64,000 nt of DNA, from positions 19,220 through 83,219 of the forward strand of contig MU832182.1 of the NCBI GenBank assembly GCA_029204225.1. Reading direction: 5' to 3'. The notes under the pieces were generated by a model. That model saw nothing but the letters and a program-made list of their open reading frames with translations, was not told the origin of the DNA and did not search any database. The position numbers were made by a program, and so were the translations under genes. Within the stretch, counting starts at the first letter, position 1. Each line of letters opens with the position of its first letter. The stretch comes from Diphasiastrum complanatum (taxonomy: Eukaryota > Streptophyta > Lycopodiopsida > Lycopodiales > Lycopodiaceae). Shown here piece after piece: positions 20,255 through 56,557 of the stretch.

Positions 20255-23200
20255 CTCCCTCTTCAACTAGTTTTAGCATAGATTTAGAAAGTACACCAAG
20301 ACTTGTTCTATGCTTGAAAAATAAGTCCTTTCCCAATGCTTTGGTAAAGATATCAGCCACACATTCCTTTGATGGGACATGTTCAAGCTTGATCTCTTTT
20401 GCCAACACTTGTTCTCTCACAAAATGGTAAGCCACCTCGATATGTTTGCTCCTTGCATGGAAAACCGGATTGCTTGCTAGACTTTGGGCTGAAAGGTTGT
20501 CACAAAAGATGATTGGACTCTCTGAAAAATCCAGCAAATGAAGCTCCATAATCATCCTCTTGATCCACACCATCTCCTTTGTGCATGATGTCAAAGCTTT
20601 GTACTCGGCCTCACTAGAAGAAAGTGATATAGTTGCTTGTTTCTTCGACATCCATGAGATAGCTCCATCACCTATGAAAATAGCATGTGCATTTATGGAT
20701 TTTCTATCCATAAGGTCTCCTGCAAAATCTGAATCTGAAAAACCAAATAAGTTAGGTGATGAGCCTCTATAAACAATGCCAAAATCTTTTGTTCCCGAGA
20801 TGTATCTCAAGATCCTCTTTCCTAGTTTCCAATGTTCTATGCTAGGATCTTGCATGAATTGGCTTAATCTACCAACACAATAAGATAAATCAGGTCTTGT
20901 GATGGTTAGATATATAAGAGAACCTATTAGCTTCCTATAGAGAGTAATGTCCTCGAAGGATCTTTCATTACCTCTTATAGTTAGCTTTACATGTGATTCC
21001 ATAGGTGTATCAATAGGATTTACATCTACCATATGAAATCTATTGAGAATAGAAATAGCATACTTCTCTTGTGAAATAAAAGTGATTTGAGAAGTTCTAA
21101 TTACTTCTATTCCTAAGATATAGCTCAAAAGACCAAGATCATGCATTTCAAATTCCTTTTTTAGTGCTTTCTTGATATCTTCTATATCTTCCTTGTTCCC
21201 TCCACTTAAAATAATGTCATCCACATAAATTAGAAGGATTGTAACATCATTAGCACTAATTCTAAAGTAAAGTGAATGATCATACTCACTCATAGTGAAG
21301 TTTTGAGAAAGTAGAAAAGAGTTAAGCCTAGCATACCAACTCCTTGGTGCTTGCTTAAGACCATACAAACTTTTTTGTAGAAAACACACATGATTAGGCT
21401 TGCTATGAGAAACATAGCTCTCGGGTTGCTCCATGTAGACTTCCTCTTCAAGATCACCATTCAAGAAAGCATTAGAAATGTCTAATTGCCAAAGATCCCA
21501 TCCATAAAGAGTTGCAAGGGAAATGATTACTCTTATGCTCACCATCTTTGCCACGGGTGCAAAGGTTTCCTCATAGTCAATGCCATGCTCTTGAGCATAA
21601 CCTTTAGCCACCAACCTTGCCTTCAACTTGTTGATAGATCCATCTTGATTTGTCTTTACCTTGAAGATCCATTTGCATCCAATTGCACTTTTGCCCTTTG
21701 GAAGCTCCACCAATCTCCATGTGTTGTTCTTCATAAGTGCTTCAAACTCAAGATCCATTGCTTGGATCCATTCCTCTTCTTGCCTTGCTTCATCTACACA
21801 TGAAGGTACATCAAAAGAAGTTAGGAAAGCATAGTTGGATCCATCCACCACTTGCTTACCTTTGCCATCATAAGTGAGCCTTGAGGGTTTCACTTTATGC
21901 CTTGGAGTTCTCCTTGGAATTTGACTTGAAGAGGCTTCTTCAACATCCACATCCAATGTGTCATCAACTCCATTGTCATCAAGCACATTAGTTGCAACAA
22001 CACCATCATCACTTGAAACAACTTTTGGAATGTTACCTTCATCAAAAATGACATCCCTACTTGTGAACACTTTCTTGATTGAAGGAACATAAATCCTATA
22101 TGCTTTGCTTACTTCACTATAACCAACAAAAATGCCCTTTCTTGAAGATGGATCCTCCTTAGTTCTATCATCAAGAGTAATGTTGAAGTAGCAAATGCAT
22201 CCAAAAGTTCTTAGAAACTTGACATTAGGCTTCGTACCAAACAAAGCTTCAAAAGGGGTTTTTCCTTCCAATACAACACTTGGCCATCTATTGCATAGGA
22301 AATTTGCACACAACAAAGCATCACTCCAAAAAGGTTTAGGAAGATTAGCATTCAATCTCATTGCCTTTGCACTCTCACACAAGGTTCTATTCTTCCTCTC
22401 GGCCACTCCATTTTGTTGTGGTGTTCTTGGACATGTGTACTCCCTCTTGATCCCATGCTCATCGCAAAAGGCTTTGAATTTGTTAGAAATGTATTCACCA
22501 CCATTGTCGCTCCTCAAGCATTTGATTTTGGTTGTAAATTGAGTCTCAATAGCAACTTTGAACTTGACAAACACATCAAACACCTCATCCTTGCTCTTTA
22601 GTAGATAAACCCAACAAAATCTACTAAAATCATCAATGAAAGTTACATACATCTTAGCACCTCCATTGCTAATTGTAGTAACACCATGAATATCCGAATG
22701 CAAGAGAGAAAAAGGCATCTTAGATCTAGATATAGATCTAGTATATGGCAATCTATGTGATTTAGACAAAGCACATTCTTCACAAACATGATTCAAGCAA
22801 GTAAGAGACTTGGGAAGTCCCCTTACTACCTCCTTTTTGGCTATTACCTCCAAGGCCTTGTAGTTGAGATGTCCCATCCTTTTATGCCATACCTCTTGAA
22901 TTGACATTTGTTCATTTGCCATGCATCCAACTTGGTTAGCAACAACACATGCATCAAGCTTGAACAATTTCCCTTGCCTTTTCCCTTTTGCAATGATACT
23001 ACACCCCTTTTTGATCAAGCAAGCATCACCATCAAACTCAACTTTGAATCCTTTGTCAAGCATTTGGCTTACACTAAGTAAGTTCTTGGTAATGGATGGA
23101 ATGAGCAAAACATCTTTCAATTCTATATTCCTATTTGTAGAAAGTGAAATAGGAATTGTGCCAATCCCCTTGATTGCACACTCACCATCATTTGCGGTAT

Positions 23201-24200
23201 AGATTACCTTCCTATCACCATCAAATGCCATTAAAGATGAAAAATACTCTTTATGATATGTCATATGAGAAGTGGCTCCACTATCAATCCACCAAGGATC
23301 AATGTCTCCATGATTAGCCAACAAGCAAGATGACATAACAAAAGCATCATTTGAAAGAAGCTCATCCCCACCCTCATCAATAGTTAGATTGGTTTGCTTT
23401 TCCCCTTGATCCCTCTTTTTCTTAAAACAATCACTAGCAAAATGCCCTTTGACTCCACAATAGAAACATTTTAGCTTAGATCTATCCTTCTTTTTGCCAA
23501 AAGTAGAGTGCTCACCTTGGTCTTGCCCTTTAGACCAATTGCTTTTACCTTTGCCCTTGAACTTGCCTTTAGAGAACATTGCCTCCTCTTCTCCTCCTTG
23601 AGATGTAGAAGATGCTCCCACTCTTGCTTGCAACCTGAATTCTTCAGCCAACAAGACCTCTTGCAAGTCTCCAACACTTGGTAAACATTTTTGGATAGCA
23701 TAACTTTGAACAAGATTAGCATGATCATCCAACAAGCCATTGAGAATCACTTGAACAAGCTCCTCATTATTTATGCCATCATTAATGCATGCTAACTCAT
23801 CATTCAATGCTTTAACTCTCAAAACAAAAGCATGTCCATTCTCACTCTTCTTTTGCATACAAGAAAAGATTTGCCTTCTTAAAGTCAACACTCTAGAAGT
23901 AGACTTGGATTCATAAACCTTCTTTAAGGCTTCCCAAGCTTCACTAGATGATGTGCACTTACCAACCTCTTTGATAAGCTCATTTGTCACATTCATCTTG
24001 ATCATGTGAAGGGCTTTCTTTGCCCTCTTGTCATACCTCAATTGTTCTTGAGGTGCCAAAGGTCTCTCCTCCACACCTACAACAATATCCATCAACTCAT
24101 TCATCTCAAGCAAAGACTCCATCCTTACTTTCCAAGTAGAATAGTTGAGGGAGGTAAGCCTATCATTGCTTTCCAACATGTAGCCTCCATTTGTAGCCAT
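20250..24200 (-). CDS. Copia gag-pol polyprotein, copy 1
   Basis: One uninterrupted 1316-codon frame encoding the whole polyprotein. Gag occupies about residues 1-230, with a Lys/Gly-rich tail. The CCHC knuckle is at 245-258 (CFYCGVKGHFASDC). The aspartic protease DSG is at 306-308 (WWIDSGATSHM). The integrase zinc site has H439 and H444 followed by a Cys pair near 468-476, and its catalytic core has D503, D565 (SDNGGEY) and E601. RT has YVDD at 992-995. RNase H has D1158, E1197 and D1234, and the conserved SKHIEVAYHF is at 1251-1260. No catalytic residue is missing. The start is the first Met, 596 bp after the primer site. The last codons run through the polypurine tract and the TGA stop lies inside the 3' LTR. 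Copy 2 differs at only four residues (G722S, L859F, M1019V, V1060A). Cellular role: self-encoded capsid, cDNA synthesis and integration. Confidence 0.97.
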   Translation of the reverse strand: MATNGGYMLESNDRLTSLNYSTWKVRMESLLEMNELMDIVVGVEERPLAPQEQLRYDKRAKKALHMIKMNVTNELIKEVGKCTSSSEAWEALKKVYESKSTSRVLTLRRQIFSCMQKKSENGHAFVLRVKALNDELACINDGINNEELVQVILNGLLDDHANLVQSYAIQKCLPSVGDLQEVLLAEEFRLQARVGASSTSQGGEEEAMFSKGKFKGKGKSNWSKGQDQGEHSTFGKKKDRSKLKCFYCGVKGHFASDCFKKKRDQGEKQTNLTIDEGGDELLSNDAFVMSSCLLANHGDIDPWWIDSGATSHMTYHKEYFSSLMAFDGDRKVIYTANDGECAIKGIGTIPISLSTNRNIELKDVLLIPSITKNLLSVSQMLDKGFKVEFDGDACLIKKGCSIIAKGKRQGKLFKLDACVVANQVGCMANEQMSIQEVWHKRMGHLNYKALEVIAKKEVVRGLPKSLTCLNHVCEECALSKSHRLPYTRSISRSKMPFSLLHSDIHGVTTISNGGAKMYVTFIDDFSRFCWVYLLKSKDEVFDVFVKFKVAIETQFTTKIKCLRSDNGGEYISNKFKAFCDEHGIKREYTCPRTPQQNGVAERKNRTLCESAKAMRLNANLPKPFWSDALLCANFLCNRWPSVVLEGKTPFEALFGTKPNVKFLRTFGCICYFNITLDDRTKEDPSSRKGIFVGYSEVSKAYRIYVPSIKKVFTSRDVIFDEGNIPKVVSSDDGVVATNVLDDNGVDDTLDVDVEEASSSQIPRRTPRHKVKPSRLTYDGKGKQVVDGSNYAFLTSFDVPSCVDEARQEEEWIQAMDLEFEALMKNNTWRLVELPKGKSAIGCKWIFKVKTNQDGSINKLKARLVAKGYAQEHGIDYEETFAPVAKMVSIRVIISLATLYGWDLWQLDISNAFLNGDLEEEVYMEQPESYVSHSKPNHVCFLQKSLYGLKQAPRSWYARLNSFLLSQNFTMSEYDHSLYFRISANDVTILLIYVDDIILSGGNKEDIEDIKKALKKEFEMHDLGLLSYILGIEVIRTSQITFISQEKYAISILNRFHMVDVNPIDTPMESHVKLTIRGNERSFEDITLYRKLIGSLIYLTITRPDLSYCVGRLSQFMQDPSIEHWKLGKRILRYISGTKDFGIVYRGSSPNLFGFSDSDFAGDLMDRKSINAHAIFIGDGAISWMSKKQATISLSSSEAEYKALTSCTKEMVWIKRMIMELHLLDFSESPIIFCDNLSAQSLASNPVFHARSKHIEVAYHFVREQVLAKEIKLEHVPSKECVADIFTKALGKDLFFKHRTSLGVLSKSMLKLVEEGV
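20255..20264 (-). other. Polypurine tract of copia element 1
   Basis: GAAGAGGGAG on the minus strand, immediately before the 3' LTR. It also encodes the last Glu-Glu-Gly of gag-pol. Confidence 0.9.
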
Positions 24201-24796
24201 GTTGCAATGATTGATCTCTGATCTTTGACCTGTTCCAATGCACTAAGCACTCTCTTGAATCAACAAATGAAACACAAGAAGAAATCACAAAGATTTGGAA
24301 CCTAAAACCTTACTTTTTCTCTCTTTTCCTCACTTTTTCCTTAATTTTAGCCACTAGTTTTATGATTTCTTGATCAAACCAAGACCAAACCTCAATATAC
24401 TTGCTTTTCCCTCACTCCTAAGATTGAAATACACTCTTGAATCATTCAGCAAACTGAAAATCAGAGGGTTACATCAATTTTGAAGTTTTTGACATGAAGA
24501 AGCAAGAAATTGAATCAAAAAACTATATGCTAGAATGGAAAACTAATAGGATCTTGTTGGATCTTGCATCTCCCTCTTTCCAAAACAATTTTTGTCTCCT
24601 TATTCTGATAAGTACAGAGGGAATTCGCCCTACTTCAATTGAAATGCATACAAATGATGTTTTGATCACAAAGATCCAATTTCTACACATAAATCAACAA
24701 GATTTTTAGCTAGAAACTTGATTGGAATGCTACAAAAGCAAACTCGCCCACAAATCTCTTCTAAATCTGGCAAAACCTGCACATTTGGCCGCCTAA

Positions 24797-24809
24797 TGCT
24801 CTGATACCA
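24797..24809 (-). other. Primer-binding site of copia element 1
   Basis: TGGTATCAGAGCA on the minus strand abuts the 5' LTR with no gap and is complementary to initiator Met-tRNA. The 596 bp from here to the gag start (24201-24796) form the leader. Confidence 0.93.
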
Positions 24810-25462
24810 TGTGAAAAACTCAGATCCAAAAGATGCTAAAGTTTCATAAAGATCTTGGCCATGGAAGTTATGCACATCTAGATTGAAAAAATGATAGAAA
24901 TTGTGATGTTAAGCATACTAAACATCAACTAAACATCAAAATCTGATCATAAGCTTCCACAAACAGAAACTTGCTGTCCCTGTCCGTACTTCAGAGCCTA
25001 CAACCTGCATTTCACACGTGTGAAGCCATAGCAACAAAGAAATCACAATTCTAGTGGCTAGAATGCAAGATATGAACAAAAAAGTGAGAGAGAAGAAGAT
25101 GGATCTTCAAAGAGCATAACATTCATTCAATAGAATGAAAATGAGATATGTACATACTCGTGGAGATGGCTATTTATAGCAGCCATAGTGCCTCTTGGCC
25201 ACTTGTCTTATGATAGGCTAAAATTGGGGTCCAATAGGATTCACCCATATACCTAGAAATTTGGTCAAATAGGAATGCACCAAATTATGAGCCAATAGAA
25301 GAGCTCCACACTCGACCTCCTCTAATTAATGTGACCTCAAAAGTAGTGTACACATACTTTGGGCCTCTACATACATGTATGAACCTATCTCTAACTTTTA
25401 TTTGGCCATAGGCCTACAAAATCTCAAGTTAGGAAAATACTACTAGTTGACAATTTTTCACA
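24810..25462 (-). repeat. 5' LTR of copia element 1
   Basis: 653 bp, differing from the 3' LTR at one position by my reading (24985). It carries the transcription start region of the element. Confidence 0.97.
25170..25179 (-). promoter_or_regulatory. TATA box in the 5' LTR of copia element 1
   Basis: CTATAAATAG on the minus strand, a consensus TATA box inside the LTR. The palindrome TTCACACGTGTGAA (25011-25024) lies about 150 bp downstream of it in the transcribed direction. The same box occurs in the other three LTRs of this family (19962-19971, 41669-41678, 46877-46886). Confidence 0.75.
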
Positions 25463-27330: not shown

Positions 27331-28689
27331 GATGGTAGTTCAAAGTCTATTTTATCTTCAGTGAAGAGGGTGAGGCAAGTTGACTCTTGGATGGGATAGA
27401 GACATGCTCTAGATCGATTTTGGAAGTTGGAAGCACTTGGATTGGCATCCCGGAATTGAGTGCTGATTTTCAAGAGAAGTTCGAATATGGATTCCATAGT
27501 TCTTGTATGTGGCATACTTTTCGAAATTGTTGGTAGAGTGCTCTTCTACATGTTCTATTTTGACAAAGATGCTGGAATTTATGTGAATTCATTCGTGGTC
27601 TTCTACTTCTTTGAAAAAGCTTTCAGATGTTGTGGAATGATCTGCTCAACGACTTGTTTTCTATTTGGTTAAATTTTAACAACATGCTAGACCATAATAT
27701 TTTGATTCATGTAGGCTAGTGTGATACTACATCGATTTATCCAGTTTGTGTGGACTATTAGCAGTTTCTCTTATGAACATGCATGATGGGAATATAGGGG
27801 AATGAGCAACTATGTTAAAATTTAGCAGAATGGAAGCTATGTTAAGCTAGTGAATCTTAGGTTGAAGCTTGATGTATGTAACCCTGTTGTGACCCGCTAG
27901 ATAAACAATTGAGCCTTCTCTCAGATTTTGTTTTTCAGATTCTGGAACCCTGATTGATGGCTAAAACTTCACAACTTGAGAAAAACCTAAGGTCGTTTTC
28001 CAGATACTGATTTGCAGGTGCAACTACAAATAGAAGTCGACTGATGGCTTAGGTGCTGTAAGTTGTGGCAGAACCTGTTCTATGGGACATATTCTGAAAT
28101 GATAGAAGTTTTGCTTGATCTGTAGTTGGACTCTCCCTTTGTTTGATATGGGCTTTCATTTATTGAATGAAAGAGTGTATACACAGATTTTTACTAAAGT
28201 TTATTTGAAACTATTGTTCTCCCACAATGGTGATTGTTGTAGGTAGATCTTTGCAGCACGTTATCAGCTCCTGTCTTTTTCGCATCTGTGACATGGCAAA
28301 TATTAGTGAATGTGCAATTGTAAATGATGACATTTTCTATTATTTTGTTCTATTTTGAAATGGCAATAAACATAAAGTACTTACAAGTCTTCCGTTGATG
28401 ATAAATTTGAAATATGTTGGTAGATTGGTTTGTAATAGCATGAGCTCTGTTCTGATAAAATCAAGCTTCCAATGCTCTTCCACCTCAGCCATAGTCAAAT
28501 ATTCCTCATTGTTAGATAATGCTTATCTCCATTCGGTTTGTGTGACCATTTAGTTCAAAGTCTTGATCTAGCGGTAGCCATGTACCTTCAATTTTCTTGT
28601 ATCTCTGGTAGCTAAATGTGAGACTGAGCATTTGCTTTTCGATACAAATAAGGTCATATTCTTCCTTTCGGCTAGTCCATTCAACTATA
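27331..28689. other. Non-coding stretch
   Basis: No gene is recognised. Short plus-strand frames such as 27460-27672 have no family features and the sequence is AT-rich. Confidence 0.45.
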
Positions 28690-41308: not shown

Positions 41309-41961
41309 TGTGAAAAACTCAGATCCAAAAGATGCTAAAGTTTCATAAAGATCTTGGCCATGGAAGTTATGCACATCTAGATTGAAAAAATGATAGAAAT
41401 TGTGATGTTAAGCATACTAAACATCAACTAAACATCAAAATCTGATCATAAGCTTCCACAAACAGAAACTTGCTGTCCCTGTCCGTACTTCAGAGCCTAC
41501 AACCTGCATTTCACACGTGTGAAGCCATAGCAACAAAGAAATCACAATTCTAGTGGCTAGAATGCAAGATATGAACAAAAAAGTGAGAGAGAAGAAGATG
41601 GACCTTCAAAGAGCATAACATTCATTCAATAGAATGAAAATGAGATATGTACATACTCGTGGAGATGGCTATTTATAGCAGCCATAGTGCCTCTTGGCCA
41701 CTTGTCTTATGATAGGCTAAAATTGGGGTCCAATAGGATTCACCCATATACCTAGAAATTTGGTCAAATAGGAATGCACCAAATTATGAGCCAATAGAAG
41801 AGCTCCACACTCGACCTCCTCTAATTAATGTGACCTCAAAAGTAGTGTACACATACTTTGGGCCTCTACATACATGTATGAACCTATCTCTAACTTTTAT
41901 TTGGCCATAGGCCTACAAAATCTCAAGTTAGGAAAATACTACTAGTTGACAATTTTTCACA
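41309..41961 (-). repeat. 3' LTR of copia element 2
   Basis: 653 bp with TG..CA ends. Contains TTCACACGTGTGAA at 41510-41523 and the TATA box at 41669-41678. Confidence 0.97.
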
Positions 41962-44900
41962 CTCCCTCTTCAACTAGTTTTAGCATAGATTTAGAAAGTA
42001 CACCAAGACTTGTTCTATGCTTGAAAAATAAGTCCTTTCCCAATGCTTTGGTAAAGATATCAGCCACACATTCCTTTGATGGGACATGTTCAAGCTTGAT
42101 CTCTTTTGCCAACACTTGTTCTCTCACAAAATGGTAAGCCACCTCGATATGTTTGCTCCTTGCATGGAAAACCGGATTGCTTGCTAGACTTTGGGCTGAA
42201 AGGTTGTCACAAAAGATGATTGGACTCTCTGAAAAATCCAGCAAATGAAGCTCCATAATCATCCTCTTGATCCACACCATCTCCTTTGTGCATGATGTCA
42301 AAGCTTTGTACTCGGCCTCACTAGAAGAAAGTGATATAGTTGCTTGTTTCTTCGACATCCATGAGATAGCTCCATCACCTATGAAAATAGCATGTGCATT
42401 TATGGATTTTCTATCCATAAGGTCTCCTGCAAAATCTGAATCTGAAAAACCAAATAAGTTAGGTGATGAGCCTCTATAAACAATGCCAAAATCTTTTGTT
42501 CCCGAGATGTATCTCAAGATCCTCTTTCCTAGTTTCCAATGTTCTATGCTAGGATCTTGCATGAATTGGCTTAATCTACCAACACAATAAGATAAATCAG
42601 GTCTTGTGATGGTTAGATATATAAGAGAACCTATTAGCTTCCTATAGAGAGTAATGTCCTCGAAGGATCTTTCATTACCTCTTATAGTTAGCTTTACATG
42701 TGATTCCATAGGTGTATCAATAGGATTTGCATCTACCATATGAAATCTATTGAGAATAGAAATAGCATACTTCTCTTGTGAAATAAAAGTGATTTGAGAA
42801 GTTCTAATTACTTCTATTCCTAAGATATAGCTCAAAAGACCAAGATCATGCACTTCAAATTCCTTTTTTAGTGCTTTCTTGATATCTTCTATATCTTCCT
42901 TGTTCCCTCCACTTAAAATAATGTCATCCACATAAATTAGAAGGATTGTAACATCATTAGCACTAATTCTAAAGTAAAGTGAATGATCATACTCACTCAT
43001 AGTGAAGTTTTGAGAAAGTAGAAAAGAGTTAAGCCTAGCATACCAACTCCTTGGTGCTTGCTTAAGACCATACAAACTTTTTTGTAGAAAACACACATGA
43101 TTAGGCTTGCTATGAGAAACATAGCTCTCGGGTTGCTCCATGTAGACTTCCTCTTCAAGATCACCATTCAAGAAAGCATTAGAAATGTCTAATTGCCAAA
43201 GATCCCATCCATAAAGAGTTGCAAGGGAAATGATTACTCTTATGCTCACCATCTTTGCCACGGGTGCAAAGGTTTCCTCATAGTCAATGCCATGCTCTTG
43301 AGCATAACCTTTAGCCACCAACCTTGCCTTGAACTTGTTGATAGATCCATCTTGATTTGTCTTTACCTTGAAGATCCATTTGCATCCAATTGCACTTTTG
43401 CCCTTTGGAAGCTCCACCAATCTCCATGTGTTGTTCTTCATAAGTGCTTCAAACTCAAGATCCATTGCTTGGATCCATTCCTCTTCTTGCCTTGCTTCAT
43501 CTACACATGAAGGTACATCAAAAGAAGTTAGGAAAGCATAGTTGGATCCATCCACCACTTGCTTACCTTTGCCATCATAAGTGAGCCTTGAGGGTTTCAC
43601 TTTATGCCTTGGAGTTCTCCTTGGAATTTGACTTGAAGAGGCTTCTTCAACATCCACATCCAATGTGTCATCAACTCCATTGTCATCAAGCACATTAGTT
43701 GCAACAACACCATCATCACTTGAAACAACTTTTGGAATGTTACTTTCATCAAAAATGACATCCCTACTTGTGAACACTTTCTTGATTGAAGGAACATAAA
43801 TCCTATATGCTTTGCTTACTTCACTATAACCAACAAAAATGCCCTTTCTTGAAGATGGATCCTCCTTAGTTCTATCATCAAGAGTAATGTTGAAGTAGCA
43901 AATGCATCCAAAAGTTCTTAGAAACTTGACATTAGGCTTCGTACCAAACAAAGCTTCAAAAGGGGTTTTTCCTTCCAATACAACACTTGGCCATCTATTG
44001 CATAGGAAATTTGCACACAACAAAGCATCACTCCAAAAAGGTTTAGGAAGATTAGCATTCAATCTCATTGCCTTTGCACTCTCACACAAGGTTCTATTCT
44101 TCCTCTCGGCCACTCCATTTTGTTGTGGTGTTCTTGGACATGTGTACTCCCTCTTGATCCCATGCTCATCGCAAAAGGCTTTGAATTTGTTAGAAATGTA
44201 TTCACCACCATTGTCGCTCCTCAAGCATTTGATTTTGGTTGTAAATTGAGTCTCAATAGCAACTTTGAACTTGACAAACACATCAAACACCTCATCCTTG
44301 CTCTTTAGTAGATAAACCCAACAAAATCTACTAAAATCATCAATGAAAGTTACATACATCTTAGCACCTCCATTGCTAATTGTAGTAACACCATGAATAT
44401 CCGAATGCAAGAGAGAAAAAGGCATCTTAGATCTAGATATAGATCTAGTATATGGCAATCTATGTGATTTAGACAAAGCACATTCTTCACAAACATGATT
44501 CAAGCAAGTAAGAGACTTGGGAAGTCCCCTTACTACCTCCTTTTTGGCTATTACCTCCAAGGCCTTGTAGTTGAGATGTCCCATCCTTTTATGCCATACC
44601 TCTTGAATTGACATTTGTTCATTTGCCATGCATCCAACTTGGTTAGCAACAACACATGCATCAAGCTTGAACAATTTCCCTTGCCTTTTCCCTTTTGCAA
44701 TGATACTACACCCCTTTTTGATCAAGCAAGCATCACCATCAAACTCAACTTTGAATCCTTTGTCAAGCATTTGGCTTACACTAAGTAAGTTCTTGGTAAT
44801 GGATGGAATGAGCAAAACATCTTTCAATTCTATATTCCTATTTGTAGAAAGTGAAATAGGAATTGTGCCAATCCCCTTGATTGCACACTCACCATCATTT

Positions 44901-45907
44901 GCGGTATAGATTACCTTCCTATCACCATCAAATGCCATTAAAGATGAAAAATACTCTTTATGATATGTCATATGAGAAGTGGCTCCACTATCAATCCACC
45001 AAGGATCAATGTCTCCATGATTAGCCAACAAGCAAGATGACATAACAAAAGCATCATTTGAAAGAAGCTCATCCCCACCCTCATCAATAGTTAGATTGGT
45101 TTGCTTTTCCCCTTGATCCCTCTTTTTCTTAAAACAATCACTAGCAAAATGCCCTTTGACTCCACAATAGAAACATTTTAGCTTAGATCTATCCTTCTTT
45201 TTGCCAAAAGTAGAGTGCTCACCTTGGTCTTGCCCTTTAGACCAATTGCTTTTACCTTTGCCCTTGAACTTGCCTTTAGAGAACATTGCCTCCTCTTCTC
45301 CTCCTTGAGATGTAGAAGATGCTCCCACTCTTGCTTGCAACCTGAATTCTTCAGCCAACAAGACCTCTTGCAAGTCTCCAACACTTGGTAAACATTTTTG
45401 GATAGCATAACTTTGAACAAGATTAGCATGATCATCCAACAAGCCATTGAGAATCACTTGAACAAGCTCCTCATTATTTATGCCATCATTAATGCATGCT
45501 AACTCATCATTCAATGCTTTAACTCTCAAAACAAAAGCATGTCCATTCTCACTCTTCTTTTGCATACAAGAAAAGATTTGCCTTCTTAAAGTCAACACTC
45601 TAGAAGTAGACTTGGATTCATAAACCTTCTTCAAGGCTTCCCAAGCTTCACTAGATGATGTGCACTTACCAACCTCTTTGATAAGCTCATTTGTCACATT
45701 CATCTTGATCATGTGAAGGGCTTTCTTTGCCCTCTTGTCATACCTCAATTGTTCTTGAGGTGCCAAAGGTCTCTCCTCCACACCTACAACAATATCCATC
45801 AACTCATTCATCTCAAGCAAAGACTCCATCCTTACTTTCCAAGTAGAATAGTTGAGGGAGGTAAGCCTATCATTGCTTTCCAACATGTAGCCTCCATTTG
45901 TAGCCAT
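41957..45907 (-). CDS. Copia gag-pol polyprotein, copy 2
   Basis: An intact 1316-codon frame, identical in layout to copy 1: gag, CCHC knuckle 245-258, protease DSG 306-308, integrase D503/D565/E601, RT YVDD 992-995, RNase H D1158/E1197/D1234. It differs from copy 1 at S722, F859, V1019 and A1060. None touches a catalytic residue, and F859 (INKFKARLVAKG) is the more usual copia residue, so copy 2 may be nearer the family consensus there. The stop again falls within the 3' LTR. It looks competent. Confidence 0.97.
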   Translation of the reverse strand: MATNGGYMLESNDRLTSLNYSTWKVRMESLLEMNELMDIVVGVEERPLAPQEQLRYDKRAKKALHMIKMNVTNELIKEVGKCTSSSEAWEALKKVYESKSTSRVLTLRRQIFSCMQKKSENGHAFVLRVKALNDELACINDGINNEELVQVILNGLLDDHANLVQSYAIQKCLPSVGDLQEVLLAEEFRLQARVGASSTSQGGEEEAMFSKGKFKGKGKSNWSKGQDQGEHSTFGKKKDRSKLKCFYCGVKGHFASDCFKKKRDQGEKQTNLTIDEGGDELLSNDAFVMSSCLLANHGDIDPWWIDSGATSHMTYHKEYFSSLMAFDGDRKVIYTANDGECAIKGIGTIPISLSTNRNIELKDVLLIPSITKNLLSVSQMLDKGFKVEFDGDACLIKKGCSIIAKGKRQGKLFKLDACVVANQVGCMANEQMSIQEVWHKRMGHLNYKALEVIAKKEVVRGLPKSLTCLNHVCEECALSKSHRLPYTRSISRSKMPFSLLHSDIHGVTTISNGGAKMYVTFIDDFSRFCWVYLLKSKDEVFDVFVKFKVAIETQFTTKIKCLRSDNGGEYISNKFKAFCDEHGIKREYTCPRTPQQNGVAERKNRTLCESAKAMRLNANLPKPFWSDALLCANFLCNRWPSVVLEGKTPFEALFGTKPNVKFLRTFGCICYFNITLDDRTKEDPSSRKGIFVGYSEVSKAYRIYVPSIKKVFTSRDVIFDESNIPKVVSSDDGVVATNVLDDNGVDDTLDVDVEEASSSQIPRRTPRHKVKPSRLTYDGKGKQVVDGSNYAFLTSFDVPSCVDEARQEEEWIQAMDLEFEALMKNNTWRLVELPKGKSAIGCKWIFKVKTNQDGSINKFKARLVAKGYAQEHGIDYEETFAPVAKMVSIRVIISLATLYGWDLWQLDISNAFLNGDLEEEVYMEQPESYVSHSKPNHVCFLQKSLYGLKQAPRSWYARLNSFLLSQNFTMSEYDHSLYFRISANDVTILLIYVDDIILSGGNKEDIEDIKKALKKEFEVHDLGLLSYILGIEVIRTSQITFISQEKYAISILNRFHMVDANPIDTPMESHVKLTIRGNERSFEDITLYRKLIGSLIYLTITRPDLSYCVGRLSQFMQDPSIEHWKLGKRILRYISGTKDFGIVYRGSSPNLFGFSDSDFAGDLMDRKSINAHAIFIGDGAISWMSKKQATISLSSSEAEYKALTSCTKEMVWIKRMIMELHLLDFSESPIIFCDNLSAQSLASNPVFHARSKHIEVAYHFVREQVLAKEIKLEHVPSKECVADIFTKALGKDLFFKHRTSLGVLSKSMLKLVEEGV
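41962..41971 (-). other. Polypurine tract of copia element 2
   Basis: GAAGAGGGAG on the minus strand, abutting the 3' LTR. Confidence 0.9.
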
Positions 45908-46503
45908 GTTGCAATGATTGATCTCTGATCTTTGACCTGTTCCAATGCACTAAGCACTCTCTTGAATCAACAAATGAAACACAAGAAGAAATCACAAAGA
46001 TTTGGAACCTAAAACCTTACTTTTTCTCTCTTTTCCTCACTTTTTCCTTAATTTTAGCCACTAGCTTTATGATTTCTTGATCAAACCAAGACCAAACCTC
46101 AATATACTTGCTTTTCCCTCACTCCTAAGATTGAAATACACTCTTGAATCATTCAGCAAACTGAAAATCAGAGGGTTACATCAATTTTGAAGTTTTTGAC
46201 ATGAAGAAGCAAGAAATTGAATCAAAAAACTATATGCTAGAATGGAAAACTAATAGGATCTTGTTGGATCTTGCATCTCCCTCTTTCCAAAACAATTTTT
46301 GTCTCCTTATTCTGATAAGTACAGAGGGAATTCGCCCTACTTCAATTGAAATGCATACAAATGATGTTTTGATCACAAAGATCCAATTTCTACACATAAA
46401 TCAACAAGATTTTTAGCTAGAAACTTGATTGGAATGCTACAAAAGCAAACTCGCCCACAAATCTCTTCTAAATCTGGCAAAACCTGCACATTTGGCCGCC
46501 TAA

Positions 46504-46516
46504 TGCTCTGATACCA
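46504..46516 (-). other. Primer-binding site of copia element 2
   Basis: TGGTATCAGAGCA on the minus strand, directly after the 5' LTR; initiator Met-tRNA type. Leader 45908-46503. Confidence 0.93.
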
Positions 46517-47169
46517 TGTGAAAAACTCAGATCCAAAAGATGCTAAAGTTTCATAAAGATCTTGGCCATGGAAGTTATGCACATCTAGATTGAAAAAATG
46601 ATAGAAATTGTGATGTTAAGCATACTAAACATCAACTAAACATCAAAATCTGATCATAAGCTTCCACAAACAGAAACTTGCTGTCCCTGTCCGTACTTCA
46701 GAGCCTACAACCTGCATTTCACACGTGTGAAGCCATAGCAACAAAGAAATCACAATTCTAGTGGCTAGAATGCAAGATATGAACAAAAAAGTGAGAGAGA
46801 AGAAGATGGACCTTCAAAGAGCATAACATTCATTCAATAGAATGAAAATGAGATATGTACATACTCGTGGAGATGGCTATTTATAGCAGCCATAGTGCCT
46901 CTTGGCCACTTGTCTTATGATAGGCTAAAATTGGGGTCCAATAGGATTCACCCATATACCTAGAAATTTGGTCAAATAGGAATGCACCAAATTATGAGCC
47001 AATAGAAGAGCTCCATACTCGACCTCCTCTAATTAATGTGACCTCAAAAGTAGTGTACACATACTTTGGGCCTCTACATACATGTATGAACCTATCTCTA
47101 ACTTTTATTTGGCCATAGGCCTACAAAATCTCAAGTTAGGAAAATACTACTAGTTGACAATTTTTCACA
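46517..47169 (-). repeat. 5' LTR of copia element 2
   Basis: 653 bp, TATA box at 46877-46886, palindrome TTCACACGTGTGAA at 46718-46731. Confidence 0.97.
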
Positions 47170-47583: not shown

Positions 47584-49069
47584 TCAACAAACTTTAAGTA
47601 CAAAAAGCTTTGATCTAAACTTATCAAACTTTTCTCTAACAAGTGGCTTAGTGAAAATGTCAGCTAGTTGTTCTTCCGTACTACAATGAACAACATGAAT
47701 TTCACGATTCAGTAGCCTCTCACGTATAAAGTGATATTGAATCTCAATGTGTTTGGTTCTCGCATGGAACACTGGACTCTTTGCTAGCTGAATGCCACTT
47801 TGACTGTCGCTATGTAAAATTGTGGGATTTTTCTACTTCATGCCAACTTCTTCCAAGATTTGTCTCAACCATATAGCTTCATGTGCTGCACTACACATTG
47901 CCTTATACTCTACTTCTATGGTGGATAGAGCAATTGTACTTTGCTTCTTACTAGACCAGGAAAATCAATTGCCACAAAGCTGGAATACATACCTTGTGGT
48001 GGATCTACAATCATCATAGTCACCTCCCCAATCCGCATCCACATAGCCACACAACTCAAATAAACCCTCATGCTTCCTGTAAATCAAGCCATAATCCGAA
48101 GTGCCTTTTACATAACGCAGAATGCGCTTAGCTGCCTTCCAATCCTTTTTCGTAGGTGCTGCCATAAATTGACTTACAATACCAACAACATAGCATATAT
48201 CTGGTCTAGTCATGGTAAGATAAATCAAGCTCCCTACTAACTGCCTATACAACGTAGCATCAAATGGTTGTGACTCATCAAGCTTAGAAAGATTTTTACC
48301 TGGTTCAATAGGAGTATTCACTGGTTTGCAATCCTGCAACCTAAACCTGTGCAGCAACTCTTTGACATACTTCACCTGTGTTAAACCCACTTCGTGTGCT
48401 TTTTCCCACACCTCTACTCCAAGGCAATAATGCATCAGACTGAGATTTGTCATCTCGAATTGTTCCATGAGGTCTTTCTTGATCATATCTATCATCTTTT
48501 GATTATTTCTCGTAATAATCAAGTCATCAACATAAAGAGCAATCAAAGCAACCATACCATCAAAGCAAAAGACATACATATTTGGATCAGAATGTGTTCT
48601 CACCATCTCCTTTGAATAAAAGTAGGCATCAATCCTACTATACCACGCACGTGGTGCCTGTTTAAGACCATAAAGTGCTTTCTTCAAACAACATACTTTA
48701 TTTTCATGTCCTTTCGCTACAAAGCCTTTAGGTTGATCCATGAACACCTCTTCTTCTAACTCACCATTTAGAAAAGTAGATTTCACATCCATCTGATGCA
48801 AAGGCCAACCAAAATGTGAAGCTAAAGCAACAAGTAGACATAGAGTATTCCACTTACATATCGGTGCAAAGGTCTCCTCGTAGTTGATGCCTTTACTTCG
48901 TGCATACCCTTTGATCACCAATCTTGCCTTGTGCTTTGCTATACTTCCATCTGCATGGTACTTAGTCATGTATACCCATTTGCAACCAATGGGTTTCTTG
49001 CCAATTGGTGGTTCTACTAAGTCCCATGTGCTATGCTTAGCATTTGACTCCATCTCCTCTCCCATGGCC
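47584..49069 (-). pseudogene. Ty1/copia H: RT and RNase H
   Basis: On the minus strand the RT starts abruptly at EEMESNAKHSTWDL (near 49060), then shows GCKWVYMTKYHADGS, the catalytic YVDD (ALYVDDLIITRNN, about 48505-48540) and the thumb. RNase H runs to YVDADWGGDYDD near 48010, a stop/frame change near 47960, then SPVFHARTKHIEIQYHFI and the end at 47584. The RT block is open for about 365 codons. Everything upstream of RT is absent. Instead the reading frame runs straight, without a stop, into the Ulp1-like exon at 49069-49212. Confidence 0.87.
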
Positions 49070-50625
49070 ATCATGATTCCAAAATAAGAATAAACAGAAT
49101 CTATTACCTTAGAAATATCAACATCTTGTTGAAGGACGAACCACTCTAAAAACAACTTGGCATTGTATAATGTGTACCACCCACAGCTGAATGAATCATT
49201 TTGCTGGGGTGACTGCAAAATTATTCAGCACACAAGAAATCAATTATGAAACAGAATGAATTAGATTGAAAATACTTCATTAGAATACTGATTTCAAAAT
49301 GCTATTAAGAAAGATAGAGTTTACCTCCAAACCCTAAACCCTAAATCCACGGAATGGGGAACGTCTGTAGGAATATATTTACTTAGATATGAAAGGTACA
49401 TATCTACATCCTTATGCGTATTTCTCGCCGAATTCATCTTGACACAAAAACCTTTAATAATATTATTTACAGATCTCTTAATAGAGATCAGGTTTAAACT
49501 CCAGTGGTCACTGCAAAATAAGATTGAAATTTTCTTTAGCTATAATTTTGGGAACTATTTCCATTGACAATGCCAATGTTAATGCATAAAACAACAAGAA
49601 GCAATTAATATATCTTACTTCGTATGATAAGGTATGAGCAGATACTTTGTTGTTGGTGTGAATCCACTTGTCGGACACTGTGACAATGTGTCATTGTTCT
49701 CCTTGAAGGCCTGAAGCAGAAAGCTACTCAGCACCAACAACTCATTTGATGAATCTCTTGCAATGTCATATTGCAAGATTGTGAGCCTGGACTCTATCAC
49801 AGGATCGCTGATAAGAGCCCGTCTGACTTTGAGATCCAAGCAATCTATAACTCTAAAACTAATACTAAAATCAACTTCATCTAGTCTAAAGCAAAAAGGA
49901 GTACCAATAGTATCTATAGCATCGGATATGTCTTTCTCAAATTTAAGATAATCATCTGAATCTATATATGTATAAAAATTTGGAGGAAGAGGAGGAGGTG
50001 GATGTGTAGTATCTACAGCAATTGAAGAGGTATCCAAAACAGAGGTAGCTATATTTACAGCATTATCAACAACAACATTATCTACAATGGATTCCGAGTT
50101 AGGCTTCACAGAATCTGAAGGGTTAGGCCTCACTTTCTTAGGAGCACGCTTGGGGGCTGTCTGCTTCCTAGGACGCTTCATAGGAAGATTAGTCCTATCT
50201 ACAGGAGTTGGTCTAGGAGTAGCAGGCTGAGATATATGTAACCTACAGTACTTATCCCTCATCCTCTTCAGGAGCTGAAAATCCTTGGGCATTATGGTAA
50301 CCCTCTTGGAATGGATGGCAAGCAAAAAAGAATCCTAAAAAAAAAGGCTAATGTAATCTTCAGCAGCCTCCTGAAGGCACTGAAGAGCACTGGGTGTGAA
50401 TGTAACCAGCTTTCTGAGATCATTTCTTGTTATGTTTTGGACATCGCGGTAGAATGGAGCTCTTGGGATCAACAGAGCTATTGATCTCTAATACTTGCAT
50501 ATCTCAGAGGGCCACCTACTACGGTTGCGCGTTCTAGGTCTAGCAGGTGGTGTGATGGCAACCGCAGGAGATGAGGATGAGCCAGGAGAGAAGATGTCTC
50601 TCCTTGTCTGCTTTCTCCTATCCAC
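49070..50625 (-). pseudogene. Histone H3/CENH3-like domain fused to Ulp1-like (C48) peptidase
   Basis: Exon 1 is 50625-49619 in one frame. A GTG stands where H3 has its Met. The tail reads DRRKQTRRD (H3: R2, K4-Q5-T6, R8), then comes a Ser/Pro/Arg-rich stretch, the alphaN region (SEICKY), LLIPRAPF, LQEAAEDYIS, and finally LLAIHSKRVTIMPKDFQLL, which is H3 alpha3 to the C-terminus. QEAAEDY and LLIP resemble CENH3. TAG stops replace the Gln of the YQK position (50488-50490) and the Glu of FED (50335-50337). A basic NLS-like linker (KRPRKQTAPKRAPKK) follows. The peptidase part runs from about 49990, with YLLIPYHTN completed across an in-frame GT..AG intron (49618-49511) by DHWSL (catalytic His). 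Exon 3 (49212 on) has SPQQNDSFSCGWY (Gln and Cys; Cys codon 49183-49185). The expected Asp position may be Asn. The exon 2 donor is uncertain (49325 or 49351). The C-terminus is replaced by copia RT. Confidence 0.8.
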
Positions 50626-51455
50626 GGATGTGTACTATGTGATAGCGGACTTGTGCGTGACAGTTAGGATGAGCAAGGAGGGATGATAAAGAACTCGCAG
50701 AGGACCGATATGTACGGACATAGTGTACGTATATCGGACCTGTGCGAGCCGAATATCAGAGAGAACGATTAGTCTTGAGAAAAGACGCACAAGTGCGATA
50801 TGGGGTGACACGTAGGCAGACGTATCGAACCTATGCGCATGGAAGGCGGTAGGAGAAATTTTGATTGTGAAGGACGCGCACAAGTGTGATATGCGGAGCC
50901 TAAAAAAAAGTGAAAAAAATTCATTGAAGTTTGTGATTTTATATCGCGGTTCGCACGTGCCAAAGAACGTCCTGTCACACGTGTGGGAGTTGTATGGACA
51001 AATGCGAGAGCGACACATGTCACCCTGTCACATTACATGTGTGGGATTTGTACGATCTAATGCGAGAGTGACAAGTGTTGTCGAGCAAACGAATGAACAC
51101 GTGACACGTGTCCAAGTGTCATTTCACATGTGTGTTGATGTCACCTCACACGTGCCTGCGCTTGTAGTCCAATTGAAAGTTGACACATGTCCTAAGTCCA
51201 TTGACCACACGTCAAAAATTTAGTATAAATGGCACAAAAATTGATTGATTTTTTACCTTTTCCATTCTCGAAATTCGCGGCATATCGCTCTTGTGCGCGC
51301 TCATTGCCTTCCATTTGCTTGCAACTGTACCTACTCGCGCACAAGTGCGATATTCGGTATATGCCTGCCGTACATATCCCTCTTGTGCGCCATTTTGATA
51401 GCTAGTTTTGGTTCAGTTCTCCCTCACACACAAATGCGATATTCACGTTACTGCC
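50626..51455. promoter_or_regulatory. Divergent intergenic region with ten copies of a palindromic motif
   Basis: It lies between the divergent starts of the H3-Ulp1 gene (minus, 50625) and the plus-strand gene (51456). The motif GCGCACAAGTGCGATAT, containing the inverted repeat CGCAC-AA-GTGCG, or its reverse complement occurs with variation at about 50639, 50731, 50785, 50821, 50874, 50938, 51281, 51335, 51373 and 51424. The middle (50950-51200) has about seven CACGTG-like sites (CACACGTGTG, CACGTGACACGTG) and a 58-bp duplication (50977 and 51035). This would suit either a bidirectional promoter bound by an element-encoded factor or transposase-binding repeats. Open frames here are not credible genes. 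Confidence 0.65.
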
Positions 51456-52972
51456 ATGGCCTCTTCCTCATCATCCTCACGAGATTCAGGCTTGAGTTCA
51501 TTTCTTAGTGAATTTGGAATTACTAAAGACCTAGACTATTTCCACAGTCTATTCAAGCCATATCTACATGTTTTCAGGATTGCACAACCAAATTCTAACG
51601 TATTTTATGACCATTATGTCAGATTCAAAGATATACTTAGTAAGCCTGTTTTCTCTGTAGGTCCACTCCAGTACATGCATTATATTGATCTTGTTCATTT
51701 CTTCCCAGCTTTTAGACATAGACTGGATAGAATGTTCACCAAATTGTTTGATCTTTTCAGAAGCAGTTCAATGTGTCCGTATTGCAACAAGAAATGTCGA
51801 TTCGTTGAATTTCATAGTGGTTTCGTATTTTTCCTGTTAGTTCAGATCCCAAATGATGATGAAGTTTTTGTTGCTGACCCTCCTTTTGCACCATCCTCTG
51901 TTCAGTCAGCTATTAAGGATATCAGTCACTTTCTTATCGACACTCCTGATTAGGAAAGTGAGTTTATTGATGTAAATACTGATGTTCTCCAGGATTCTTT
52001 CATTGGCCAAAATACATCTGATGATGAATCCAAATCTATGGAGGAGTCAAAATGTCTTTTCAATTTGCCTGTATATTATATTAATGACGATGTATATTTT
52101 GCTACTGCTGATTTATGTAAATTTTTTGACTATCTTGAGGACGAGGTTCTATGTTTATTATCCGACACAATTTCCGAATTCTCCGACTTTGTAGATTTTA
52201 AAACAGATGAACTTGTTGCTGGTATTGATTTTGATGAGGAGGAGGGACTTATGACCGGTGAAGAATGCCTGAATAAGACTTTATCAAATATAGCTGAGGA
52301 TGGGTGAGGCAGACCATCCGATGAAAAATTCACGGCATTTCAATCCCAGATGGGCTTCTCTCGTCCATCATTAATGCATTTCACTAATGATTCCACTTCA
52401 ATACGTGGTCATTATATTGATCATCCTGATCTGGTTGCTGCTGATGATGAAGAATGTGTAAGTGTTTAATCTTCCTTGCATTTGAATGTTTTCAATCACT
52501 GAATGTGTTTTTGCTAACATGTTTCCTATTGCAGGATGCTCTCATAATAGATGATTTTGCTACGAGACGAGGTGTTTTCAGACAACACGCATCCTCGTTC
52601 CAGAGGGACAGTGGACTGGGCCACTATCTTAGGCATTTCCTGAAGAATGAGATCTGTATTGCTCATTCCAAGCCGAGCCCATTCGGGGAGAGTCTTATAA
52701 TGGCAATTAGAGCTTTATCATTTTACCTAGGAGGACATAAATTTGTTAAGACGAATAAGATCATTTTTGTCAAAAGATCTTATGTTTTGAACATTTTAGG
52801 CTTTACTGATGGGAATGTTCCTTTAAGGAGCTCTCATTATTCATTGTATTCCACTTATATTGAGCTTAGTGGAAATAAGGATAATGCACATCTATTAGAT
52901 GCATACGCTAGCAGAGAATTTCTTCATGACAATACTGCCATAGAATCTGATACAAGATCTGATGATGAATAG
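51456..52972 (+). pseudogene. Unrecognised two-exon gene of the H3-Ulp1 element
   Basis: The start at 51456-51458 has a strong context (GCCATGGCC). An upstream in-frame Met at 51408 lies inside the repeated promoter motif and is rejected. Exon 1 is 51456-52457, the intron 52458-52534 (GTAAGT..TTGCAG, 77 bp, phase 0), and exon 2 52535-52972, about 479 residues in all. In-frame stops are TAG (51951-51953, codon 166) and TGA (52305-52307, codon 284). The product has a Ser-rich start, a Phe/Tyr/Leu-rich helical first third with a CPYCNKKC zinc-ribbon-like pair (about codons 108-115), a very acidic middle, and a second folded part including GESLIMAIRALSFYLGG. No family is recognised. It is transcribed divergently from H3-Ulp1 and convergently with the transposase-like gene, so it is probably a third component of the same element. 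Confidence 0.6.
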
Positions 52973-53106: not shown

Positions 53107-55741
53107 TCATCTAATTTTCTCTTCTTGTATGAACTTGCATGCTTTTCTAAACTTGTTGTATTGTGTGGACTTTGTTATATGTCGAATCTGAACTCTGCGG
53201 TAGAACCATTGAAACAACTGACAAATGTAGTTTCGTTTTTCATTGCTTCCTCCATGTTTTGTATTTCGATGAAATGCTGCTTGTGCTTGCCAGTGTGACT
53301 TCTCCATCTCTTGTGATGACCATACACTCAAGCTTCCATATGTATTTTTGTATGACCTCTTAGTATGTGCTGCATATGTCAAAATCATAATGTTAGTCTT
53401 ATGTTTGGATCTAAAAAAATATGAAAATTTGAAAGCATTTTGAAAATTTTATACTAACCATGTAATGAGTGATGTGATCTTCTCCCCATGCTTTTGATAC
53501 TGCATTAACAAACTCGACACAAGTCCTTTGGACAGCTTTCTTATCAATATCAGAGTATTTTTCTTTTCTTAGATTAGCAATCATACTATCAAGCTTTTTC
53601 CATACATCAACTTTTAGTACTCTGGTTTTGCCATCTTTCTCGAAGTCCTAAGTGGCAGCAATAATATCTGTCCAGACTGAGTGTTGAATATTAGAAACCT
53701 TACCAGTATGATTTGATAAAAAACGACGTGCTTCTGCTCCTCCTATGCTTGGCTTAGTTGGCATGTTCCCGTTCTTTCCTGAAAGCTTTTCATCTTTTTG
53801 AAATTTGACATGTCCTTTATGGAGTCTTGCTTTTGATAAAACATCTTCTAATCGAGAGATAGCTTCCTTTGCTAATGATGTTGGCTTAGTACTCCAAGCA
53901 AAAACTATATGAAGATATATGATCTTTTCTATTAATCTAACTTCTGCATGAAGAGTGCAAACATGCACATTTTTTAAGGGGATAGGCAGCACGTGCTTCC
54001 AGTTTGGATCTGCATATTCTCTAGTAATTCCTTTACTCCTAGTTACATCTTTTGTCATTTTCATGCAGGTCAAACACGGGTGTTTTGATGTAGCATCGTG
54101 AGAGACATTATACATACATTTCAATGTTTTCAAATCACCTGCTAAGTGCCATTCAACATTGAAGTCTCCAACTCCTGGAACATTGAGAAGTCCTCCATCC
54201 ATATGGTCCTTGATGATCCTAGGATGTGAGAATATCCATGATAATATATCATGATCCTCTTTTAGCACCTGTCCAAAGAATTAATGAGACTTAGTTTACA
54301 ATGTATTAATACTATTCAATAAATGTAATGTAGTAATGAGGCTAGTTACCTGAAATGCTGCCAACCACCATATATCATTTTCTGACTGGACACTGAATCT
54401 AAAATCTTCTTGGTTCTCTGTTTGTGATAGAGCACCATTCATGAGAGTTATACTAACCCTCCCCATCTTCTGCCCTTTCACAATTTCTGACTCATCCTAA
54501 CTTAACTACTATGATTATTTTGCCATTCACTTTTTTCATAGATTATATCATAGAATGTGACGATGTATCTCAGCAAGTAATTTAGATCAACAAATAAATT
54601 GTTTGATGAATTGTAAAATATCGATCTTCCACCAGTTTCATACACCTCCTCAATATGAAATGGAGTTCCAATGATCTTATGCATACCTATGTTTAATGTA
54701 TCCCTCTCTTTCTTCAAGTGATATGTCCTAGGGATTGGGACTTTTCTAATTTGAACTTGCTTAAAAGCTTCTCTAATTAGTTTAAATATTGTTGCATATG
54801 CTTCTCTGCTAATACCTGCAAAATCACAAGCACCCTGAACTATAGTCTTATCTAAAAAATTTTGAATGTCCACCATCAAAGACTCTGCTATTTTACACTT
54901 TACATTTGAAATCCTATTGTTCATCATGATACGCGCAGTGGATTTGCAAGTCAATATTGTGCCCAATGACATTCCTAGTGAAGCATTGTCTTTAATATTC
55001 CGAGGAGCTACTAATGCAGATCTGCAAAAAAAACAGATAGTTAACATAATATCACCATAGCTGAAATTAAATCCAAATGTCATTGAAAAACTTACAAAAA
55101 TCAGAATATGCTTACTTGAATACACAGATCCTTCTATTTCGATAACCTCCTTTTGAAAGCGTTTGAATATCCTTGCAACTTTGTCGCTTTTGCTTCTTAC
55201 TTTCAGCCTTTTTCTTTGCCAAATCCACATCCTTCAAGAATTGTAAGTTTTCAATACGAATAGACTGTAAGACTGATTGTATTTGCTCTAGTTCTGATTT
55301 GATGTTGATTGTTATCTTCTGTAATGATTCATTATTTTTTTTAAGTTGTTCATTTTCTTCTAACGTCTTTTGGAGATGACAATCTCTATTCTGACAATAA
55401 GAGGATATCCGAATTAACTCACCTTCTAAAAAGTGAACTTTATTCATATAAAGTTGTTTTCCATGGTTCTGCAATCTTTCACAATATCCTAGTAATCCAC
55501 TATGCCCATTGCATATCCATGTAACTAAATGAGTTATTGAAGAGAATGTGGGATGTGTCAAAGTGCTTGGATCTTGTGGATATAATGTTCCATCTATCCA
55601 TAAATCCAAGTTTTTTTTCCCTTCTGCCCTGTAACGAGAACGATTCTCAGCAGATATTTGAATTCCTTTGCCTCCTCTTCTCTGCAAAGGTGCCAAATCA
55701 ATAGGGATATCCACATGTAAATGATATAATGTCATCATCAA
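53107..55741 (-). pseudogene. Multi-exon DDE-transposase-like gene
   Basis: Exon 1 is 55741-55116 (209 codons with a coiled coil at about residues 103-182 and a basic end). An in-frame intron (55115-55022) leads to exon 2 from 55021 (SALVAPRNIKDN). The junction near 54530-54490 is damaged. Exon 3 (GRVSITLMNGALSQ) ends at 54350. An 81-bp intron leads to exon 4 (54268), which holds WHLAGDLKTLKCMY followed by KHPCLTCMK, a stop at 53648-53650, and an open tail to about 53459. A last exon (about 53370-53107) has YGSLSVWSSQEMEKSHWQAQ and RNTKHGG. An Asp in GDLK, a following CxxC pair and a late Glu before a His/Arg-rich helix match the layout of eukaryotic cut-and-paste DDE transposases with a zinc insert (KDZ-like and related groups). 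The superfamily is not assigned, and the first Asp appears lost (KGQKMG). The family call is inference. Confidence 0.5.
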
Positions 55742-56110: not shown

Positions 56111-56557
56111 TAGACACTGTGGTTAGATCATTGGGAGTTGGGGAGGCCTTGGGAGTGGTGTGGGCAAGCAAATAAACAATATTGTTTTTTTTATTTTGAT
56201 ATTTTTCTATATCCTACATGGCATTCCTTAAAGGGTCTTTTTGATATTGAGAACTCCTCTAATGTCCAAGCCAAGCAAGCTAGAACAAGGAGGCAACCAC
56301 CACACCTATGTTGAAGAGAACCAAAGCCTAAAGAGGAACCGCCTCGTTCTTAAGGCTAACAGCTCCTTTTGGGCCTAAAAAGCTTACAATGGATATTTTA
56401 AGGCATTGATAAACACTAATTACTAGAAGTACATGACACTCCCCCTACTTAAACATTTTTGTCCTCAAAAATGAAGACATCTACTTAATAGCTCTAGTAA
56501 TACATTTAAGTAGTGTCAAATATGAATGTCATTCCCAACAGCTTCATGGCAATAGTT
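56111..56557. other. Non-coding stretch
   Basis: No gene recognised. A plausible 3' end/LTR flank of the adjoining gypsy relic, but not demonstrable. Confidence 0.35.

Follow-up and report, generated by a model that had tools for sequence, protein, structure and literature searches.

Can a histone and a SUMO protease have become a single gene, and if so, what carries that gene? This question is raised by a minus-strand frame in the window, by which we mean the whole 64,000-nucleotide stretch of contig MU832182.1 of Diphasiastrum complanatum analyzed here. In a preliminary description, the frame was read as running from a histone H3-like tail through the histone fold into a Ulp1-type cysteine peptidase, and a transposon was proposed to have captured a CENH3-like gene and fused it to a deSUMOylase-like protease.

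In the window the frame can be followed as described, without frameshift, from the tail through the fold to the end of exon 1 (50622 to 49618), and both catalytic motifs of the peptidase are present downstream of introns (Table 1). The statement that it runs on without a break holds only near the end of the H3 fold and beyond, in a 239-aa open stretch of the minus strand (49615-50334); further upstream two TAG codons interrupt the fold. Because of these stops, a GTG start codon, a degenerate end of exon 2 and a missing exon 4, the window copy is a pseudogene, a dead fragment. Its homology to other, intact copies ends at 49070, at the start of a Copia RVT_2 fragment, and a 419-aa open frame that joins Ulp1 to Copia (47965-49224) is a chance junction. 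Elsewhere in the window, two pairs of a 300-nt repeat at 19602-25109 and 41309-46816, with a spacing of 5208 bp and a likeness of 99-100% within each pair, resemble the LTRs of a retrotransposon present in two young copies; locus L009 has part of a third.

Table 1. Features of the H3-Ulp1 gene and of its carrier in the window.
Feature	Position	Strand	Remarks
5' terminal inverted repeat of the H3-Ulp1 transposon, begins CATTAGAGGAGTTCTCAATATCAAAAAGACCC	56230..56264	-	Matches the L015 copy's 3' end (8192-8226) at 35/35 bp
Broken transposase gene, RAG1/Transib-like family	53110..55020	-	Aligned pieces 55020-54532, 54542-54498, 54496-53459, 53382-53110
Opposite-strand ORF piece 'rrgg'	52535..52969	+	90% identical to L015 copy; family A homologue E=6.8e-9
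Opposite-strand acidic ORF piece	52050..52466	+	89% identical to L015 copy; related frame in L027
Opposite-strand ORF piece with CPYC motif	51402..51917	+	82% identical to L025 copy
H3-like N-terminal tail DRRKQTRR	50599..50622	-	K4 kept; next residue D is position 9; compared with 20 other copies
Histone H3 fold	50251..50505	-	50.6% over 85 aa to canonical H3, tblastn E=5.6e-20; in-frame TAG at 50490-50488 and 50337-50335
Linker and pre-Ulp part, remainder of exon 1	49619..50250	-	Donor AA/GTAAG common to intact copies
Ulp1 exon 2, catalytic His (DHW)	49325..49510	-	Aligned with L015, L025, L013; 3' part degenerate
Ulp1 exon 3, SPQQND..CGW (Gln and Cys)	49108..49212	-	Intron 3 cut at 49070
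Copia RVT_2 fragment abutting the broken element, outside the gene	47965..49070	-	PF07727 E=2.3e-72
3'-part fragment of a second copy of the H3-Ulp1 element family	28149..28644	+	97% identical to L015 6348-6842

Intact copies are found elsewhere in the organism's own genome (1.74 Gb in 5176 contigs, about 23 of them of chromosome size). A Histone HMM search, in which 150 of 6325 first-look candidates were scored, listed canonical H3 genes at ~165 bits alongside numerous diverged H3s scoring 95-110 bits, the latter often inside open frames of 200-400 aa. At two loci, L015 and L025, the gene is intact, with four predicted exons and 470 aa. The spliced L015 protein bears out the two-domain architecture on a single chain, matching both Histone (PF00125, E=1e-27, residues 27-123, above the curated cut-off) and Peptidase_C48 (PF02902, E=1.1e-10, 42.2 bits against a cut-off of 20.7, residues 316-442 of 470). 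The histone fold of an intact copy scores 98.3 bits against PF00125 (cut-off 26.4, E=4.7e-28), and the 60 PDB matches listed of 178 to the H3 part are all named H3, one merely as a 'histone domain-containing protein'.

The fusion recurs throughout the H3-Ulp1 element family (family B below). A genome search with exon 1 gave 121 scored matches, each spanning at least residues 12-314 of the 331-residue query and hence joining H3, linker and pre-Ulp part; they are the best among 9965 first-look candidates, which favors whole copies in the count, and assembly duplicates may account for a few on small contigs. Counted by eye, exon 1 is stop-free in 24 matches and carries stops in the remaining 97. 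Exon 1 reaches just into the start of the Pfam Ulp1 match; the later exons were checked in 20 copies, which were chosen for an open exon 1. All later splice sites are present in 12 of these, and seven (L015, L025, L034, L036, L039, L043 and L046) hold a full four-exon frame of 470-491 aa, with the catalytic Cys kept in all but L034, which has Tyr. An assembly or annotation artefact, by which the two parts merely appear joined at the window locus, has practically no probability left: the window copy does contain an artefactual open frame, that between Ulp1 and Copia, but H3 and pre-Ulp stand in one frame in every scored copy, on many chromosomes and contigs, and this, together with the splice sites of the 12 copies, refutes it. 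Nor are the two parts always separate genes elsewhere, or the Histone HMM match insignificant, as the preliminary description had allowed they might be.

The carrier of this gene is a TIR DNA transposon of 8.7-9.3 kb and high copy number. The flanks of its copies diverge beginning at the terminal inverted repeat, for which the genome has 2446 matches against 0 for the reversed control, and the ends are of the form 5'-CA..TG-3' (CATTAG..CTAATG in family B and in family A, described below). Of ten end pairs compared for target site duplications, one shows a 3-bp match (TCA), one a 2-bp match (CA) and eight none; in one set of five copies, both ends were recovered in two. Across 38 homologues of the transposase, D404, D501, H580 and H585 are invariant and C521 and C524 near-invariant, and the DDE core and the C(2)C and H(3-4)H motifs can also be read in the element's own frames. 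A transposase homologue has a RAG1-like fold. Pfam returned no transposase match to the element's transposase, no MULE match among the scanned ORFs and sub-threshold matches alone for the accessory ORFs; membership of the MULE family was rejected, the fold of the homologue being RAG1-like instead. Among other plants the search turned up a single partial relative of the transposase, in Adiantum nelumboides (21% of the query), and relatives of the transposase homologue P0121 were absent from the viral contigs searched.

These features recall the CMCT clade, which according to the available part of PMC12730594 unites EnSpm/CACTA, Mirage, Chapaev, Transib, Plavaka, ESTA and Lanisha and is characterized by 5'-CA..TG-3' ends and by C(2)C and H(3-4)H between the second D and the last E. 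The element shares these ends, both motifs and, in its homologue, the RAG1-like fold. Of the 2-5 bp target duplications of the clade, the two short matches among its end pairs are at most candidates, and H3 cargo is not mentioned in the passages on CMCT elements. Judged by its motifs and ends, the element appears to be a RAG1/Transib-like (CMCT-type) TIR DNA transposon with H3-Ulp1 as an accessory gene, and we consider it very probable that the fusion is encoded by this transposon as one gene. The earlier proposal of a transposon gene and of an H3-Ulp1 fusion is supported; its CENH3-like label has weak support, and deSUMOylase activity is a possibility.

A histone H3 gene is also found in a diverged sister family, A. 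Its full copy L018, of 9.0 kb, has ends of the same kind as family B (CATTAGGGCCC...), and the two transposases are 33-39% identical over long stretches (E to 4e-81). Other ORFs of family B also have homologues in family A ('yry', E=4e-21; 'tnsA-like', E=1e-10; 'rrgg', E=7e-9). The family A H3 gene (MARTKQTARDPRV...) encodes an acidic proline-rich linker and a C-terminal H3 fold ending in RRERN, within a 417-aa open frame at L009. With the Ulp1 part of family B as a query, the family A loci searched gave no match except at L027, which is B-like. L027 (5396-8617) is a more diverged relative of the H3-Ulp1 element, with a Ulp1 part 62% identical, an inverted 5' end and, judging from its alignments, less sequence separating transposase and H3.

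Among the matches listed, at least 23 of 113 family A transposase matches have an H3 match within 12 kb, against 0.23 expected, and 21 of these 23 pairs lie on opposite strands. When 10 of the other 90 family A transposase loci were checked, an H3-like match, in some cases broken, lay where expected in nine, and L061 had none. Given both the pairs and these further loci, the H3 gene is a regular component of family A and not a one-off; at the sequence level, H3 is thus not confined to one element family. Identity between the A and B folds is 44-46%, and that of either to the genome's own H3 is 51-53%. The tree places both folds on the same side with a support of 70/87, where the tree program warns of long branches meeting. 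Origin of both from one capture is weakly supported. Family A also has an upstream in-frame Met (MSEEMARTKQTAR), and translation may start there (MSEEM...), which would leave the H3 tail buried rather than N-terminal.

The tails of both families retain K4 and lack K9, reading ARTKQTARD in family A and DRRKQTRRD in family B. K4 is found in 19 of 20 family B copies (T in L040), and position 9 is D in 18 and N in two, never K. In family A, 16 tails from 30 loci scanned, B loci among them, all have K4, with D at position 9 in 15 and G in one. By eye, no ARKS motif is present in the tails of L009 and L015. Both families share LIPRAPF and EDSFL, and A(I/V)H.KRVTI(M/L)PKD of the element H3 is H3-like in its PKD loop, as is the tail. 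Loop 1 has one more residue than H3 in family B and no more in family A; in plant CENH3s it has two more. The positions corresponding to H113, R116 and D123, which presumably serve pairing with H4 and nucleosome entry, are kept in the alignment.

Is the element H3 then a CENH3? The LIPxAPF in helix 1, which plant CENH3 sequences have in common with it, lends weak support to that part of the earlier label, and the tree groups it weakly with plant CENH3 (57/91). This support does not settle the matter, and CENH3 ancestry was not adopted; unlike plant CENH3, the element protein has H3-type tail residues and the PKD loop, is fused to Ulp1 and is carried by a transposon. It is quite unlikely that a CENH3-derived H3 leads the transposase to CENH3 chromatin while Ulp1 acts on kinetochore SUMO. 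Besides the LIPxAPF and the weak grouping, such centromere targeting could draw on the terminal repeats on contig C1, where 28 of the 99 perfect matches listed fall within 1.7 Mb (C1:64.97-66.68 Mb). However, two copies read in this cluster are 95.5% alike including the outer flank, and a third flank matches. Because the likeness extends into the flank, a larger unit seems to be duplicated there, and as the two copies look like duplicates of one insertion, the cluster was not counted as targeting. The scored H3-Ulp1 copies are moreover dispersed, with one of 121 on C1, and the H3-like tail and PKD loop also speak against a centromeric role. A further 27 of the 99 listed matches on C1 lie at C1:95.0-100.6 Mb.

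In the Ulp1 part, the catalytic His is kept in 12 of 12 copies, and the Gln/Cys motif was found in 11, with Cys in nine and Tyr in two. An Asn (VKMNS) aligns near the Asp position. Since papain-like enzymes use a His-Asn pair, activity is possible, and the Ulp1 part could be a protease or deSUMOylase. The term deSUMOylase-like fits the His, Gln and Cys and is weakened by the Asn. A search of 5.8 billion proteins for homologues of the Ulp1 half retained 0 of 736 candidates at E<=1, and since this search is word-based it can miss distant relatives.

Intact copies elsewhere in the genome show signs of selection on the fusion gene. Pooled Nei-Gojobori dN/dS between two length subfamilies of family B (13 x 7 copies) is 0.24 in the H3 fold, 0.30 in the pre-Ulp part, 0.36 in the tail and 0.52 in the linker, and 0.34 overall. 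For Ulp1 exons 2-3 it is 0.23 between subfamilies (7 x 4 copies, some with stops) and 0.24 among all 11; a value of 0.45 was discarded, as it included L033, which is out of frame there. Within the first of these subfamilies, B1, the values are higher (H3 fold 0.51, pre-Ulp 0.46, tail 1.05, linker 1.62, overall 0.69), which would be expected if most recent change comes from decaying copies. The copies were selected for a stop-free exon 1, which lowers the values somewhat but leaves the difference between the domains and the linker unexplained. The family A H3 fold is under weak constraint, with a dN/dS of 0.64 among 21 copies.

Plant transposons are known to capture genes passively, as reviewed in the available part of PMC13317346, and pieces of host H3 and Ulp1 might likewise have been copied along without function. 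The many stops in exon 1 and the high ratios within B1, in the linker above all, are what such capture would leave behind. We nevertheless think it improbable, given ratios of 0.23-0.30 on both domains between subfamilies against 0.52 in the linker, and given that H3 has been retained in two families whose transposases have diverged so far. Genome-wide, the internal stops of family B copies are mostly TAG, which would fit decay via cytosine methylation, with CAG turned into TAG in a CHG context.

What might such a protein do? The analysis as a whole favors, by a modest measure, a chromatin-acting accessory function for H3-Ulp1; an anti-silencing function in particular is a more tentative proposal. 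At or close to element DNA, the H3 part would enter nucleosomes or would bind histone chaperones or H4. Without K9 or the ARKS motif in the tail, the H3K9me2 silencing mark could not be placed on these nucleosomes, while K4 would still be on offer. Brought by H3 to element chromatin, the Ulp1 part would cleave SUMO off silencing factors, and the two would jointly serve as an anti-silencing factor, a transposase-docking factor, or both, as VANC/KIU do for VANDAL.

Docking on its own, in which the K4 tail is bound by an element-encoded reader that holds the RAG1-like transposase on chromatin, seems unlikely, though it has a model in RAG2, whose PHD finger binds H3K4me3. The conserved K4 and the RAG1-like fold of the transposase homologue are consistent with it. 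A candidate reader is a small fourth ORF conserved in families A and B at 27-30% identity (L025 7600-7950, minus strand; L017 2456-2809, plus strand), for which a low-confidence model ranks structures of EBS, DNMT1 and AIPP3 1 to 4. This ORF may encode a BAH-like domain, but the model is suggestive only: its pLDDT is 58, the BAH matches are not significant (best Foldseek E 0.68), Pfam gives no BAH match, and the best phmmer hit in the PDB (E 0.34) is an unrelated chain.

Anti-silencing by H3-Ulp1 would have precedents in other elements. VANDAL MULEs with VANC/KIU (Kaonashi) are likewise plant DNA transposons with a Ulp1-bearing accessory gene, and the VANC/KIU proteins cause hypomethylation of their own elements and counter their silencing; they have a MULE transposase, and the available passages mention no histone (PMC13317346), whereas here a RAG1/Transib-like transposase is accompanied by an H3 fold. 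Fungal DNA transposons carry TET/JBP genes, and HarbingerS and MuDR elements carry SET genes, with oomycetes as well as fungi among the hosts of such elements; the genes are interpreted in the available passages as counter-silencing (PMC12730594). These too are transposons with chromatin-mark genes, but they encode the enzymes that handle a mark; the present element encodes the marked protein itself, a histone.

Chimeric H3 proteins of ~386-425 aa form a separate group (P0001, P0016, P0021, P0063, P0066, P0111). Their tail is MARTKQTARK or close to it, and a long insert rich in charged residues precedes a near-canonical C-terminal H3 fold. The ~388-aa P0021 and its many near-copies resemble family A in this tail, long insert and C-terminal fold; their near-canonical fold (LIRKLPF) sets them apart from the element. 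Near-identical versions of them are numerous, with up to 212 member sequences, and they may be another mobile H3; the viral contigs searched held no relatives of P0021.

Transposons with chromatin-mark enzymes are known; the literature searched, which mostly excluded subscription journals and included the available parts of PMC13317346, PMC12730594 and PMC4411706, yielded no description of an element that both encodes a histone variant and maintains it. At its most ambitious, and with considerable doubt, the sequence evidence could be read as a transposon superfamily with its own K4-bearing, K9-less H3, a SUMO protease, a possible BAH reader and a RAG1-like transposase, which together would form a private chromatin address, both a shield against silencing and a guide for transposition. 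The H3-Ulp1 fusion offers a testable case of a mobile element altering the nucleosome itself, and it is relevant to the encounter of RAG1-type transposases with chromatin. The D. complanatum genome, in which element ends number well over a thousand and natural variants are plentiful, provides material for relating structure to function in this family.
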